Assembly: GCF_949774925.1 (NCBI RefSeq)
Contig: NZ_OX458932.1
Span: 1,488,001 to 1,552,000, forward strand
Direction: 5' to 3'
DNA: 64,000 nt
DNA from: Candidatus Methylacidiphilum fumarolicum
GTDB lineage: Bacteria > Verrucomicrobiota > Verrucomicrobiia > Methylacidiphilales > Methylacidiphilaceae
Positions within the stretch are counted from its first letter, which is position 1. The number at the start of each line of letters is the position of its first letter. The notes under the pieces were generated by a model. It saw only the letters and a program-made list of their open reading frames with translations, was not told the origin of the DNA and ran no database searches. Below, in pieces: positions 29,251 through 59,128 of the stretch. Position numbers and translations under genes: made by a program.

Positions 29251-30192
29251 TTAGGGAACATTCTCCCTATATCGACAAAACCAACCCAATACCGTAAACT
29301 CTTGAGCCCATTGCAATAGCTGTAGCTCAGAGAAATTTTCTTCCCCCTTATCATTGTCTGTTACAAACGCTTCACAAGCTTCATAAAGAGTATGCCCCTT
29401 TTCTAAGAGACTCAAAAAACGAAAGACTTGGTACTCAACTGGTTTAATATAAGGAACATTCCTAAACCGATGCACTACTACCCAATGCTTTTGTCTTCTA
29501 AGAGAGAAAGACCGTTTGGGTTTTTTAAGTGGTTGCTTGCGCCTATAAACTATCCCCATTTCTAAAGTACCGATACCAGATTTTTCTAAACCGAAAAGTA
29601 GAAAATCTTCGATTGCGTATTGAAGCTCAAGCAGGCTGATATGCGGTTGAAGGCCTATTCTCAGAACTTCAGGTTTTGCTTCCATAATATCCTTAGAAGA
29701 TAAAGAAGGATAGTCTGGGGCATCAAAAGCTTTAAACAGAGCCCTTTCCAATCGAACCATGTCTACAGCCGCTTCTTGAGAAGTGGCACCTAAAAAATCT
29801 GGATTTTCTCTTAAAAAGGCTTCTAATTCTGATCCAATATCTCCAAGTCTAGCAGAGCGAGGCGGATATTTCCCTAAATAGGCTTCTACCAGTTTTCTAA
29901 ATCGCCTTTTTCCAATAAGATAGCTTAACCCGCTAAAATCCTGATAGAAAGCCTCTAGCATTTTAAACCAATATTGTTGGTTGTAAACTTCTAGGCGTTC
30001 TAAGCTGGTCATCGTCCGACTAGGTTCAAAGATCCTTTGTGCCAATGCCTCAATAGACTCCCCATCTTCGGCCATTTTCCTTATCCGATCCTTTGAATTA
30101 AGCGGACGACGGATCAAGGTTAGAACCAATCGCTGAAGCTTTCTCAAGCTTTCAGGACTTTCCGCATCTAGGGTCTGTAGATTGATAGGCAT
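29251..30192 (-). CDS. bufC: BufC-like protein (DUF2063 domain), partner of the MNIO enzyme
   Basis: The N-terminal 100 residues hold the DUF2063 pattern, with ERLEVYNQQYWFKMLEAFYQDF, then YPPRSARLGDIGSELEAFL. These proteins partner with DUF692/MNIO enzymes, probably as precursor-recognition factors. The C-terminal half (VVHRFRNVPYIKPVEYQVFRFL) fits the usual variable domain. It overlaps the 3' end of bufB by 41 bases, a sign of tight coupling. It is third in a bufA-bufB-bufC operon. Confidence 0.85.
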   Translation of the reverse strand: MPINLQTLDAESPESLRKLQRLVLTLIRRPLNSKDRIRKMAEDGESIEALAQRIFEPSRTMTSLERLEVYNQQYWFKMLEAFYQDFSGLSYLIGKRRFRKLVEAYLGKYPPRSARLGDIGSELEAFLRENPDFLGATSQEAAVDMVRLERALFKAFDAPDYPSLSSKDIMEAKPEVLRIGLQPHISLLELQYAIEDFLLFGLEKSGIGTLEMGIVYRRKQPLKKPKRSFSLRRQKHWVVVHRFRNVPYIKPVEYQVFRFLSLLEKGHTLYEACEAFVTDNDKGEENFSELQLLQWAQEFTVLGWFCRYRENVP

Positions 30193-31015
30193 CGATAAAC
30201 GCTTTGGCTTTTAAGGCTTCCTGATAGACCTCCTCAAAAGAAGGAATGGCATCATCCCATTCAAGAAGGGTTGGCCGTGGACCACTCCGTCGAATAACCT
30301 CGCTGTAGAGTCCCCACACCGCTGATGATACAGGCTGATCATGGGTATCAAGGATATACTTTGGAAGTCGACTATGTCCAGCAATGTGAAACTGTATGAC
30401 TCGTTCTAAAGGAATATGGTCCAAATAAACTAGCGGATCAAATCCGTGGTTTTGCGAGTTGACATATAGGTTATTCACATCAAGGAGGATGCCACAGTCA
30501 GCCGTTTCAACCACTTCGGTTAAAAACTCCCACTCCGCCATTTTAGAAGAGCGATACTGGGCATAACTACTGATGTTTTCCACCCCAATCGGAACTTCCA
30601 GAAAATCCTGTGCTTCTTTTATTTTTTGAGCCGTCAGTTTTGCTGCCGCTAGGGTATAAGGCATAGGTAAAAGATCATGGACATAGGTTCCATCCACACT
30701 ACCCCAAGCTAAATGGTCCGATACCCAGGGGGTTTTTGTTTTTTTAATAAGTTTTTTCAGTCGCTTTAAATGCTCACGATCTAGCGGATCAACCGACCCA
30801 AAATACAACCCTACCCCATGCGGCACTACTTTATAACTTTCCAGTATCTTATCCAATAGAATCTCTGGCTTTCCTCCATTACCCATAAAGTTTTCAGAAA
30901 TAACCTCAAACCAGCTCACTCCTGGCTTCTTCTCCAATATATGCTGGTAATGAGGGATTCTTAAGCCAATCCCTATTCCATAGGCCTCGAAAAACTTTGA
31001 AAACTTCACAGACAT
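30152..31015 (-). CDS. bufB: BufB-like multinuclear non-haem iron oxygenase (DUF692/MNIO)
   Basis: This is a TIM-barrel DUF692 enzyme that modifies cysteines of a precursor peptide, as in bufferin and methanobactin-type pathways. Its signature residues are visible: GIGLRIPHYQHIL and WFEVISENFMG at the start, HGVGLYFGS, SDHLAWGS, VENISSYA, LLDVNNLYVNSQNHG, FHIAGHS and DTHDQPV. Together they supply the His/Asp/Glu ligands of the iron centre. I start at the ATG 31015, which has an SD (aggga) just upstream; the TTG at 31030 is less likely. It lies between the precursor gene and bufC. Confidence 0.93.
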   Translation of the reverse strand: MSVKFSKFFEAYGIGIGLRIPHYQHILEKKPGVSWFEVISENFMGNGGKPEILLDKILESYKVVPHGVGLYFGSVDPLDREHLKRLKKLIKKTKTPWVSDHLAWGSVDGTYVHDLLPMPYTLAAAKLTAQKIKEAQDFLEVPIGVENISSYAQYRSSKMAEWEFLTEVVETADCGILLDVNNLYVNSQNHGFDPLVYLDHIPLERVIQFHIAGHSRLPKYILDTHDQPVSSAVWGLYSEVIRRSGPRPTLLEWDDAIPSFEEVYQEALKAKAFIDAYQSTDPRCGKS

Positions 31016-31069
31016 GCTTTCCCTATGCAAAAAGAGGCACAGAGATAGATTCTAAACAAAGTAAAAAAC

Positions 31070-31303
31070 TTAACACCAACAAGAGGTTTTCGATTCTGAG
31101 CTTTGAGGTTCTTCACCCTTCTTGCTTTTTTTCTTTCCTTTGCAGCTTTGCTTTCCTTTACAACTCATCTCGGCAAAGGCTCTAGGATCTGCTGATTTTC
31201 CAGCTAATTTATCCAGGTTTTTCACCTGCCCATTCAGAGCTGTTCCTGCAAGCATTCCAACCATAACCGTGCCAACAACTGCAGAACGAAGTTGTTTTTT
31301 CAT
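31070..31303 (-). CDS. bufA: Bufferin-type RiPP precursor peptide (BufA-like)
   Basis: This 77-residue peptide has a signal-like N-terminus (MKKQLRSAVVGTVMVGMLAG) and a Cys/Lys-rich tail. The core contains SCKGKQSCKGKKKSKK and ends TSCWC, giving Cys at 48, 54, 75 and 77. Repeated CKGK motifs are typical of precursors found beside DUF692 enzymes. Those enzymes convert cysteines to copper-binding thiooxazole-type residues, and the product is exported to the periplasm to buffer copper. Its immediate downstream neighbours are bufB and bufC. For a copper-dependent methanotroph this suggests protection against, or trapping of, periplasmic copper. Confidence 0.85.
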   Translation of the reverse strand: MKKQLRSAVVGTVMVGMLAGTALNGQVKNLDKLAGKSADPRAFAEMSCKGKQSCKGKKKSKKGEEPQSSESKTSCWC

Positions 31304-31775
31304 CCAATTTCACGGGAAACCCCGACCTTCAGACTGGGGAGGGATAGCGCGGCGGCCTGAGCCGCCCCTGTTCCCGCATCTCCTTTCTCTAATGCTATCT
31401 TGGTTCATAAATATCCATAAGGGAAGAGAGAGGAGGTTTCACTACGTCTCCCCCCTTCCCAGGGCTTACGCCACATCCGACTTTTGTTGGTGATGGAGCC
31501 AGGCTGGCGTTCCCGACTCGCTTCCCTCGAGAAAGTGTGCGACCGGCTACCCGCATGCGCAGGAGAAGGGAACCTTCGGCGCTTTGTCTTGTGCCTGCAT
31601 GATCCCCTCCTTCCAGGGTCCAGGACTGAGGAAGTGTCCAGGATTGGGTCTTGTATAACCTATCGCTCACGTTGTTATTTCTTTGCATCGACACTGCTCC
31701 GTAACTGACCCTGATCAACTCGGCTTGTAGTTACCTACAAGCCCCTCCCATTGAGGGAGGGGTAGTTGACATTTT
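31304..31775 (-). mobile_element. Non-autonomous IS605-like relic (internally deleted)
   Basis: The segment is richer in GC than its flanks. A perfect hairpin CCCCTCCC/GGGAGGGG at 31742-31762 resembles an IS605 left-end structure. On the other side, 31310-31385 carries GC-rich inverted stretches (for example ggcggcc/ggccgcc) and a ggtcggggttt-like terminus. The minus frame 31395-31718 is open and Arg/Gly-rich like a decayed TnpB tail, but no RuvC or zinc residues can be read. I infer a deletion derivative mobilised in trans; the exact borders are not certain. Confidence 0.4.
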
Positions 31776-32086
31776 CTATATTCCTTTTAGAAGATTCGCT
31801 CTTTTTCTTTTATCCTTTGATAACAACTTCTACAAGAAAAAAACCAATTATATTTTTTGAAAAATCTTGAATTTGCAACCCTTTGCAATCCCATTTTACC
31901 ATGTCACTTCTCTTGACTCTTTCTTCCAAAATCCTACAATAAATAAAACGCTTAGGCCTAAAAGCTGCTTTGCTCCAATCTAGAGTTTATGGAAAAATGA
32001 TCTTTTGCTTTTCTTTCTCACTCCCCCTTTTATCTTTATATACTTTTTATGCTTTTTTAAAATTAAACCAACCAAAGGTTTAGTTT
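31776..32086. other. Intergenic region upstream of glgX
   Basis: AT-rich, no gene. It should contain the glgX promoter. A short in-frame Met upstream of the chosen start was not used, because similarity to GlgX begins near 32087. Confidence 0.35.
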
Positions 32087-34228
32087 ATGGAAAAAGATAC
32101 CATCTATACCGCATTGCCTGGCCGAATCTATCCTTTAGGAGCAACCTGGGATGGGCAAGGCGTCAACTTCGCTCTCTATTCCGAACATGCCACCAAAGTC
32201 GAGCTTTGCCTGTTTGACTCAGCGGGAAAGGAAACAAAAATACCGATAACCGATTGTACTGATTACATCTGGACTGTCTATATTCCCTCCCTTTCACCAG
32301 GACAGTTGTATGGCTACAGAGTTCATGGTCCCTATGAACCTCAGGCAGGGCATCGGTTTAATCCTCACAAACTCTTGCTCGATCCTTACGCTAAACTTGT
32401 CAAAGGTGAACTCAACTGGAATGAGGCTGTTTTTGGTTACAAGATAAATGACCCTCAATCCGATCTTTCTTTTAACGAGACAGACAGTGCTCCCTATGTT
32501 CCTCTATCGGTCGTAGTAGATTCCAAGCAGTCCCCAGGAAAAAAGGAGCCTAAGCCATCTATCCCTTGGCATAAGACCATCATTTATGAGCTACACGTCA
32601 AAGGATTTACTCAGAAAAATGAAAAAATCCCACCAGAATTCCGAGGAACTTTTTTAGGCTTAGCTTCCCAACCCGCCATTGACCATCTGCTTAATCTAGG
32701 GATTACAGCAGTGGAATTAATGCCCATCCATCAACATATCTCTGAAGAACATTTGATAAGAAAAGGACTGGTGAACTACTGGGGTTATAATACTATAAGT
32801 TTTTTTGCTCCCGATCAGCGTTTTGTAGCTTCTCAAACAGATCTTGACCCCATTACTCAATTTAAAACCATGGTCCAAGCCCTGCATGCCGCAGGGATCG
32901 AAATCATTCTCGATGTTGTTTACAATCACACAGCCGAAGGCAATCAATTAGGCCCTACCCTTTGCTTCAGAGGCATTGACAATGCTGCTTACTATAGACT
33001 TTCTGTTGATAACCCTAGATACTACATGGATTTTAGTGGCTGTGGCAATGGATTTAACATGCAAAACCCAAGAGTTATCCAGCTGATCATGGACAGTCTT
33101 CGCTACTGGGTAGAAACGATGGGAGTTGATGGGTTTCGTTTTGATCTAGCAAGTGCTCTTGCTAGAGAACTCTATGAAGTGGATAAACTATCAACTTTTT
33201 TCGATGCCATTTTGCAAGATCCCATTCTTTCTCAGGTAAAACTCATTGCTGAGCCGTGGGATGTAGGAGATGGGGGCTATCAAGTTGGCAATTTCCCTGT
33301 CAGATGGGCTGAATGGAATGGTAGATACCGAGATGATGTGAGAAAATTCTGGAAAGGGGATCTTGGCACATTGCCTGAGTTTGCCAATCGGCTGGCAGGT
33401 TCGAGTGATCTGTATGAGCAGAGTGGACGAAAACCCTATGCAAGCATTAACTTTGTTACTTGCCATGATGGTTTTACTCTCATGGATCTTGTAAGCTACA
33501 ACCAGAAGCATAACGAAGCCAATCTAGAAGAAAATAGAGATGGGAATAACGATAATAATAGCTGGAATTGCGGAATAGAAGGTCCAACCGATGATAAATC
33601 AATTTTAGAGCTTAGAACACGACAGAGAAAAAATTTTCTTGCAACACTCCTTTTTTCCATTGGAGTGCCAATGCTCCTTGCTGGAGATGAATTAGGCCAT
33701 AGTCAAAAAGGAAATAACAATGCTTACTGTCAGGACAATGAATTGACATGGTTAGACTGGAATTTGGAAGAAGAAAAGAAGGAATTTCTGCAATTTATTA
33801 TAACATTGATCAAAATCCGTAAGGAAGAACCGGTGTTTCAAAGAAGCAAATTTTTTCATGGAAGAACAATCCGTGGTACAAACATAAAAGATATTCTTTG
33901 GTTGGACTGTGATGGCAGCCCTTTAACGGATGAAAAGTGGAACGCAGGATTTATTAAATCCTTTCAAGTCTATATGGCAGGTGATCTCATAGGAGATATT
34001 GATTCAGAGGGTAAACCCATAAAAGGAAATTCTATCTTGATCTGTTTTAATGGGTCTGAAAATGACATTGTCTTCAAGTTGCCGACAAGAAGAAATAATC
34101 GCAGTTGGACTAGAGTGATCGACACATCCTATGGGCAGCTTTCTGCAGAAGACTTTCCTGGAGAATCTACTTACCAACTAAAAGATCGGTCCCTGGCTCT
34201 CTTTAGAGGATTAAGACCAAAAGAATAA
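32087..34228 (+). CDS. glgX: Glycogen debranching enzyme, isoamylase type (GlgX/TreX)
   Basis: This enzyme hydrolyses alpha-1,6 branches of glycogen. An N-terminal CBM48-type domain (YPLGATWDGQGVNFALYSEH) precedes a GH13 barrel. Its motifs are DVVYNHTAEG, DGFRFDLASALAREL (nucleophile Asp), LIAEPWDVGDGGYQVG (acid Glu) and FVTCHDGFTLMD (His-Asp). NEANLEENRDGNNDNNSWNCG is a typical GlgX loop. The length of 713 residues is normal. The gene appears monocistronic. With the GT4/GH57/GH13 group and the GH15 gene it indicates turnover of an internal alpha-glucan store. Confidence 0.95.
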   Translation: MEKDTIYTALPGRIYPLGATWDGQGVNFALYSEHATKVELCLFDSAGKETKIPITDCTDYIWTVYIPSLSPGQLYGYRVHGPYEPQAGHRFNPHKLLLDPYAKLVKGELNWNEAVFGYKINDPQSDLSFNETDSAPYVPLSVVVDSKQSPGKKEPKPSIPWHKTIIYELHVKGFTQKNEKIPPEFRGTFLGLASQPAIDHLLNLGITAVELMPIHQHISEEHLIRKGLVNYWGYNTISFFAPDQRFVASQTDLDPITQFKTMVQALHAAGIEIILDVVYNHTAEGNQLGPTLCFRGIDNAAYYRLSVDNPRYYMDFSGCGNGFNMQNPRVIQLIMDSLRYWVETMGVDGFRFDLASALARELYEVDKLSTFFDAILQDPILSQVKLIAEPWDVGDGGYQVGNFPVRWAEWNGRYRDDVRKFWKGDLGTLPEFANRLAGSSDLYEQSGRKPYASINFVTCHDGFTLMDLVSYNQKHNEANLEENRDGNNDNNSWNCGIEGPTDDKSILELRTRQRKNFLATLLFSIGVPMLLAGDELGHSQKGNNNAYCQDNELTWLDWNLEEEKKEFLQFIITLIKIRKEEPVFQRSKFFHGRTIRGTNIKDILWLDCDGSPLTDEKWNAGFIKSFQVYMAGDLIGDIDSEGKPIKGNSILICFNGSENDIVFKLPTRRNNRSWTRVIDTSYGQLSAEDFPGESTYQLKDRSLALFRGLRPKE

Positions 34229-58378: not shown

Positions 58379-59128
58379 TTATATCTTCTTTACCCAACGA
58401 TTTCTGGTGCACTGATCTCCAATCCACCAAAAAATTGCATATATAAAAATACCAACAACACCACTGAAGAATATGGCTGGGCCTAAGGCTCCCCCTTCAA
58501 AGGTCCGAAGAGTCCCACTTTCAATCATTCTTAAATACTCAGGAATGGCAGAACGGACATAGGAAAATCCGATGTAATCGGCTAGACTCAAAGTTTGGCC
58601 TAAGGCTTCTAAGGGTTGATGAAATGGAGCAATCATCACCCAGTTAGCAGGGTAAAAGGTTAAGGCAAAAGCATAGGCACCAAAAAGATAAGTCAAGAGA
58701 AGTTTTCTAGATAAAAGCAGAACACAATCCGCAGCAATGGCACACGGAATGACAGTCTCTGGAAACAATTCATTCATTGGATAACTGAACCATCCCCACC
58801 AATTGACATATCTTTCAAACCATTGCCAGAGATTGATTCCTACCGCACATAGAGTCATTCCCATGGGAAGTCTAGCTTTAATCCAACAAGCTGCCTGAAC
58901 GCTGACTAACATCAACATATAGGAGATGACTCCTAAAATTGGAAAATAACGTCGATCTTTCCAATCTATCCAGAAGCTCCAGTCTCCTTCTAGTAATGAC
59001 TGAGAGGCGAATGTTCCGACTGTCACAGTCATTCCTATGATAACCCATGCTACAAACTGAATTCTTTTCCCAACTTCTAAACCTTCTTTTTGAAGTTCTG
59101 GGGAAGTCTTTATCGTCTGTGTTTGCAT
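58379..59128 (-). CDS. pmoA: Particulate methane monooxygenase subunit A
   Basis: PmoA is a membrane subunit of pMMO that contacts the metal sites of PmoC. LEGDWSFWIDWKDRRYFP is the universal PmoA/AmoA signature. INLWQWFERYVNWWGWFSYPMNELFPETVIP and FTYPANWV-like FYPANWVMIAPFHQPLE also match. Six to seven transmembrane helices are visible. The length of 249 residues is normal. It lies 45 bases before pmoB and 101 bases after pmoC, the canonical order pmoC-pmoA-pmoB. An SD (aaaggag) precedes the ATG. Confidence 0.96.
   Translation of the reverse strand: MQTQTIKTSPELQKEGLEVGKRIQFVAWVIIGMTVTVGTFASQSLLEGDWSFWIDWKDRRYFPILGVISYMLMLVSVQAACWIKARLPMGMTLCAVGINLWQWFERYVNWWGWFSYPMNELFPETVIPCAIAADCVLLLSRKLLLTYLFGAYAFALTFYPANWVMIAPFHQPLEALGQTLSLADYIGFSYVRSAIPEYLRMIESGTLRTFEGGALGPAIFFSGVVGIFIYAIFWWIGDQCTRNRWVKKI

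Follow-up and report, generated by a model that had tools for sequence, protein, structure and literature searches.

The window analysed here, a 64,000-nucleotide stretch of the genome of the acidophilic methanotroph Candidatus Methylacidiphilum fumarolicum (contig NZ_OX458932.1, positions 1,488,001 to 1,552,000), carries three consecutive open reading frames (ORFs) on its minus strand at 29251-31303, in the order bufA-bufB-bufC (Table 1). An earlier note on this DNA had proposed a bufferin operon at this place, and the ORF layout, a BufB score above the curated NF050167 cut-off and a DUF2063 partner bear this out. We read the operon as a member of the Cys-Lys bufferin (captophorin) class with a derived, trimmed precursor, thus as an ordinary kind of system with an unusual detail, and give this reading a probability of roughly 0.6. 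Throughout, G000 is the genome of this strain and G008 to G011 are other genomes of the genus.

In the ORF list, bufB spans 30152-31030 and begins with TTG. An alternative ATG at 31015 is the likelier start because AGGGA lies directly upstream of it. This ATG is spaced 54 bp from bufA, and bufB overlaps bufC by 41 bp. An in-frame TGA lies three codons 5' of the bufA ATG at 31303, which is therefore the sole full-length start of bufA.

Table 1. Features at the bufABC locus and elsewhere in the window (position 1 is the first letter of the window).
Feature	Position	Strand	Description
bufA	31070..31303	-	77-aa precursor; signal-like N-terminus MKKQLRSAVVGTVMVGMLAGTAL..., core EMSCKGKQSCKGKKKSKKGE, C-terminus ...TSCWC
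bufB	30152..31015	-	MNIO (DUF692) bufferin maturase; 287 aa from ATG 31015; PF05114 and NF050167
bufC	29251..30192	-	DUF2063-RRE type partner (PME type 1, as modelled), 313 aa; PF09836 and fold match
Non-autonomous IscB/IS200-605-type element	31304..31770	-	About 467 bp, ORF-less, HEARO omega-RNA, directly 5' of the bufA ATG
Former bufA leader	31771..31850	-	Contains the AAAAGGAATATAGAAAAT ribosome-binding region; distance from there down to the start codon now about 467 bp; from alignment with G010
pmoA	58388..59089	-	Third, divergent copy; 226.5 bits versus 338-344 for the other two

The BufB enzyme and its BufC partner

BufB scored 349.9 bits against PF05114 (cut-off 25) and 339.8-339.9 bits against NF050167 MNIO_BufB, whose curated cut-off is 310. 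All four proteins of the methanotroph family that were scanned exceed the BufB cut-off and lie far below those of HvfB, ApyH, ChrH and MbnB. According to sections 13-14 of PMC13097082, enzymes of the Lys-Cys (EGKCG) group have Phe after the catalytic Asp, and those of the Cys-Lys group have a further Asp there; this residue was modelled against the substrate Lys, and a second Arg loses conservation. Both traits of Cys-Lys captophorin enzymes are found in the window BufB, which has D254-D255 and R19-I20 (the second Arg replaced by Ile), as in all four genus rows, and 3bww aligns as D-F at the DD position. The DD pair is present in 4/4 rows of the genus, in 9/9 rows of the sister genus and at 90 of the 98 other loci.

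Among His, Asp, Glu and Asn positions that are at least 97% conserved in 102 BufB proteins from outside the family, all are retained by the majority of the four genus rows except H227, which is Gln in three of them. Some of these conserved residues presumably bind iron, as in the MbnB and TglH structures.

The BufC protein scored 48.6 bits against PF09836 (DUF2063, cut-off 27.2) and stayed under the cut-off of the NF050145 HvfC model (16.3 versus 142 bits). Its AlphaFold2 model, built from a 31-row alignment, reached a predicted local distance difference test score of 87.9. Residues 67-310 of the model matched NGO1945 (3dee) with Z 15.1 and a root-mean-square deviation of 3.7 over 197 aligned residues. 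A further match, at Z 12.6, was to chain A of TglHI; since the DUF692 protein of that structure is chain D, we take chain A to be TglI. Foldseek gave E-values from 1.2e-6 to 8.7e-5. PDB sequence searches with BufC returned nothing or chance matches. Residues 175-308 matched the RRE proteins TbiB1 and ThcOx (5v1u, 5lq4) at Z 8.0, near the Z 7.2-7.8 of unrelated proteins, so that the RRE portion is weak when taken alone. Section 18 of PMC12452194 gives 3dee as the structure of the DUF2063-RRE type and names such a build PME type 1, and the BufC model has this build, with a DUF2063 domain plus a predicted RRE-like domain. A BufC motif was found at 94 of 121 loci, the other 27 not being counted as absences.

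The operon resembles the Buf2/BufA2B2C2 Cys-Lys captophorins (PMC12452194; PMC13097082) in its gene order, its BufB over the NF050167 cut-off, its DUF2063 partner with the NGO1945 fold, its signal-like N-terminus, its Cys-Lys motifs and the DD of the enzyme. It differs from them in a precursor outside NF050166 with two Cys-Lys motifs and no GGC, as opposed to a six-Cys double unit, in its variable C-terminal Cys and in having no DoxX among the neighbours scanned.

Two other identities were ruled out. The oxazolin/fontiphorin systems (HvfABC, FonABC; the EGKCG, Lys-Cys group) likewise combine an MNIO and a DUF2063 partner with a Cys-containing precursor, but the window has no EGKCG repeats, scores 249.4 bits against the 360 required by NF003818, and has Asp for Phe after the catalytic Asp. 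Methanobactin (MbnABC) likewise has an MNIO acting on Cys, a copper theme and a methanotroph host. The window enzyme scored 48.4 bits against MbnB TIGR04159 (cut-off 325), its partner is of the DUF2063 type and not MbnC, and its precursor has a signal-like N-terminus.

The BufA precursor and its cysteines

The bufA ORF is a genuine gene under purifying selection. It has a strong match in four of the five genus genomes; in G009 the matches reach no better than E 0.19-0.32. The ratio of nonsynonymous to synonymous rates (dN/dS) is 0.023 against G010 (10 synonymous changes, 1 nonsynonymous), 0.040 against G011 (6 and 1) and 0.10 against G008 (27 and 17). The corresponding values against G010 and G011 are 0.095 and 0.12 for bufB and 0.33 and 0.32 for bufC. 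In the sister genus, bufA dN/dS was 0.08-0.17 in four distant pairs and 0.37 and 0.49 in two close pairs with few changes each.

A profile of 74 precursors from relatives matched the window bufA at 23.1 bits (E 1.9e-6). The best score among 200 shuffles (ten family precursors, 20 each) was 13.2, and no other ORF of the 204 tested in the window exceeded 2.0 bits. The profile left out L091, L123, L097 and L124 as well as the Methylacidimicrobium-type L103 and L127. By these profile scores, bufA is remotely homologous to the mostly six-Cys, Cys-Lys precursors that stand beside BufB in Acidobacteriota and other Verrucomicrobiota, of which HSCKGKNDCKGKGGCKSSDNGCKGKNSCKGKGGC is an example. Most of these have an AGL-like signal in common, together with a double unit of the kind HSCKGKNDCKGKGGC-KSSDNGCKGKNSCKGKGGC. 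The NF050166 BufA2 model (cut-off 60) matched neither the window precursor nor those of G008 and G007. Three of the relatives' precursors scored 36.8, 49.0 and 33.3 bits, so that this precursor type is BufA2-like yet outside the curated family.

The N-terminus of BufA is signal-like by eye, with no canonical AXA cleavage site seen. A G[LMIFV]xxG motif occurs in the signal region of 106 of 111 precursors and in 4/4 of the genus, compared with 4 of 46 long window ORFs. The Discussion of PMC12452194 refers to preliminary evidence by which the signal contributes to recognition by BufB-BufC, and the signal of BufA may likewise act as a leader recognised by BufBC.

Several observations weigh against the assignment to the Cys-Lys bufferins. 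The bufA product has no Pfam match at E<=1, and so none to PF10048 (DUF2282), the domain of the Buf1 bufferins, with which the window has the BufBC machinery in common. Against NCBIfam it gave only a sub-threshold match to an unrelated family (14.2 versus 45 bits), and the three relatives' precursors scanned all fall under the BufA2 cut-off. The precursors that carry G[LMIFV]xxG were chosen by a profile already including this motif, and the control ORFs are not signal peptides. The closeness of unrelated proteins to the RRE match is a further such point. On the enzyme side, the second Asp is absent at five loci with multiple Cys-Lys motifs (L028, L076, L086, L118, L137), and the nine sister-genus rows have DD yet no Cys-Lys pair. 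C103, in DHLCW, is replaced by Ala in 4/4 genus rows; Cys is found there at 97 of the 98 other loci and in 9/9 sister-genus rows. The window BufB also ranks among the most diverged. Finally, the six operon neighbours scanned (ArsC-like, class-V aminotransferase, GT4, GH57, isoamylase-type and methyltransferase) include no DoxX, sigma factor or copper gene.

We then compared cysteine content, counting Cys past residue 24 of the profile-chosen start. A precursor was obtained for 111 of 115 loci (none was scored for L041, L091, L097 and L123), and L013 was excluded from the counts and later trees for its very long branch. At 98 loci outside the family, 61 precursors have exactly six Cys, 22 have more and 15 have fewer, including 12 with 2-4. 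The four Methylacidiphilum-type loci have 3-4 Cys, two of them in Cys-Lys, and the nine Methylacidimicrobium-type rows (seven genomes, two seen twice) have two Cys and no Cys-Lys pair. The core CKGKQSCKGK is identical at all four Methylacidiphilum-type loci. The C-terminal end reads CWC in G000 and G011, SWC in G010 and SCC in G008. Of the four-Cys core described earlier, therefore, the two CKGK cysteines hold as conserved and the C-terminal ones do not. Cys loss seems to belong to the methanotroph family, because two other Methylacidiphilales (L016 and L136) retain six Cys. With such a small core, the peptide would be a handy substrate for finding the minimum of Cys in a bufferin and for learning how MNIO specificity tracks the precursor.

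The enzyme of the family is also strongly diverged. Its 13 BufB tips have median distances of 1.19-1.50 from the rest, compared with at most 1.18 among 97 others; five loci with odd precursors (L018, L029, L038, L040, L041), excluded from the 97, lie at 1.39-1.51. Family BufB forms a clade with support of 85 and 93 in two quick trees, and L016 and L136 fall outside it. Precursor and enzyme divergence correlated with rho -0.41 over 111 rows, and with rho -0.14 (p 0.17) when three deviating clades were each reduced to one row (98 rows). Since these clades were picked after the precursors had been inspected, we give the correlation no weight, and joint divergence is a hint at most.

Such changes could mean that the trimmed precursor is no longer a bufferin and that BufBC modifies it for another metal, or for redox or envelope stress. 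The fall from a mode of six Cys among relatives to 3-4 here, and to two without a Cys-Lys pair in the sister genus, fits this idea, as does the divergence of BufB, and part of PMC12538549 shows its authors hesitant to assign copper protection to their own EGKCG cluster. However, precursors with few Cys occur outside the family too, the BufB divergence may reflect a lineage-wide rate, and the correlation loses significance after clade reduction. We consider this alternative rather improbable.

A related possibility, which we also hold to be unlikely, is that the methanotroph lineage pared a six-Cys, copper-storing bufferin down to a minimal peptide with one or two sites, the enzyme diverging alongside. 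The product would carry or sense Cu(I), or some other soft metal, at low capacity, and not be a bulk copper sponge, in a presumably very acidic periplasm where ordinary thiols are presumed to bind poorly. Its pared-down forms would be the two Cys-Lys of Methylacidiphilum and, on the same unlikely footing, the lone CxxC without Cys-Lys of Methylacidimicrobium.

In another verrucomicrobial family, BufB stands beside repeated DDCPGKDK-like (Cys-Pro) units at L038, L040 and L041, and the precursor of L029, from the same family, has mixed Cys motifs. Ala or Gly replaces the Asp after the catalytic Asp in the enzymes of L029, L038 and L040, which are possibly a separate specificity class.

Proposed function and the relation to methane oxidation

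For the Cys-Lys bufferin that we favour, we infer thiooxazole chemistry, export, copper binding and a protective role from relatives. BufA would be made with an N-terminal Sec-type signal that doubles as leader. The RRE-type domain of BufC would bind this leader and present the core to BufB, a multi-iron enzyme that would oxidise one or both core Cys to 5-thiooxazoles with the loss of four H each; a 4-H loss per Cys is described in part of PMC12538549. The modified peptide would then be exported to the periplasm, where it would bind Cu(I) or a different soft metal and so reduce the free metal, and the variable C-terminal Cys would probably serve as disulfide or auxiliary ligands. Section 11 of PMC13097082 and the abstract of PMC12452194 lean, for relatives, towards the sequestering of excess copper and not uptake.

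We found PF05114 in 11 of the 13 family genomes. Of 387 genomes sampled across the phylum, 32 had an NF050167 match, with 30 over the cut-off. A scan with a verrucomicrobial query gave at least 577 confirmed loci; among the best 80 of these, 79 were from Acidobacteriota or Verrucomicrobiota and one was unspecified.

Verrucomicrobial methanotrophs rely on copper enzymes, and a trimmed bufferin would be a concrete copper-handling candidate for them. The earlier note had further tied the peptide to the copper demand of particulate methane monooxygenase (pMMO). This genome has three pmoA copies. The pmoA model matched each of the 13 family genomes at least once and none of 14 control genomes. Outside the family, pmoA was absent from 25 of 25 sampled verrucomicrobial genomes with a BufB over the cut-off, and within it two genomes, G009 and G012, have pmoA and no MNIO. 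The methanotroph precursors also have fewer Cys than is usual among relatives, not more. A special link to pMMO is not supported. With pmoA and BufB coming apart in both directions, the operon has the look of an optional module for stress or buffering, and less that of an accessory to pMMO.

The same distribution bears on whether the peptide acquires or delivers copper, scavenging being among the roles that the earlier note offered. It would then supply pMMO, either as a chalkophore or as a Cu donor in the periplasm, in the way methanobactin does. This would suit a genome with three pmoA copies and bufB as the sole MNIO gene found, and PMC8630023 reports that Methylacidiphilum sp. IT6 needed added copper to grow on methane and acetone. 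Against it stand the low MbnB score and the separate occurrence of BufB and pmoA. In addition, section 11 of PMC13097082 sets methanobactin, which copper starvation induces, apart from thiooxazole pathways, for which the frequent inducers are excess copper, gold or oxidative stress. Copper acquisition is, in our judgement, quite improbable.

The words methanobactin and chalkophore were not found in the searched part of the text of the FEMS review PMC8498564. In the open-licence literature, Methylacidiphilum was never paired with MNIO, bufferin, DUF692 or DUF2063 among the matches listed, supplements such as Table S2 of PMC12452194 lying outside this search. Two of the papers listed do contain both Methylacidiphilum and the word chalkophore.

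At the locus in G009, arsC, the aminotransferase, the glycosyltransferase and GH57 are in place, and there is no bufABC match within 18 kb. Past arsC, at the place expected for bufABC, this locus (L161, 10813-17516) holds two very large ORFs of 1283 and 844 aa with a common N-terminus.

The element inserted before bufA

The HEARO omega-RNA (RF02033) of the element directly 5' of the bufA ATG lies at 31515-31770 on the minus strand and scored 70.8 bits (E 1.5e-13), under the gathering score of 83. G010 has a clean empty site at this position. In G008, which has no element, the leader is diverged and bears GGGAGC a short way 5' of the ATG, and G011 carries an element at the same bufA ATG, with 67.8% identity over 354 columns. 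In G000 and G011 the element separates the bufA ATG from the former ribosome-binding region, and a crude promoter scan of the minus strand at 31304-32120 found nothing; both points count against a working bufferin in this strain. The expression of bufA here is uncertain, because the element lies exactly between the former ribosome-binding region and the ATG.

The operon could therefore be silent or decaying in this strain, its ORFs being recent leftovers of a gene set that the omega-RNA element cut from its leader. Besides the exact position of the insertion and the lack of a promoter-like site in the crude scan, the missing operon in the congener G009, at an otherwise conserved locus, would agree with this. 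On the other hand, bufA, bufB and bufC are intact both here and in G011, which also carries an element at the same ATG. The bufA changes between these two genomes, six synonymous to one nonsynonymous, also speak for constraint, which may predate the insertions. Moreover, four further ORFs, intact and 184-369 aa long, have the element directly before their start, and so it seems tolerated. A silent operon is, in our judgement, unlikely.

The genome has nine RF02033 places, two of them above the gathering score, and ten matches to the element, itself included. In all six near-complete copies (the bufA copy and L066-L070) the right end directly abuts ATGA; for L071-L073, which are partial copies, no right end was found. 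According to part of PMC9581776, NTGA is the target-adjacent motif of the related IsrB. The ATGA starts ORFs of 77-369 aa in five of the six copies, and the sixth ORF has 15 aa. The five intact ORFs are bufA (77 aa) and, named by eye, an alcohol-dehydrogenase-like (331), a permease-like (369), a synthase-like (295) and an unnamed one (184). The elements thus cut genes off from the ribosome-binding sites and leave the ORFs intact, which raises the question whether they carry promoters or leaders of their own.

Two further observations concern related elements. L071 (1049119-1052403 of this genome) is a longer copy that runs into a 526-codon stop-to-stop frame with an HNH-like motif, read by eye as IscB; the copy is probably the autonomous element. 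In G011 (contig 43, L005/L061), an apparent TnpB gene end, also seen by eye, lies beyond the first element upstream of bufA and looks like another insertion that this lineage took up in the leader region of bufA.

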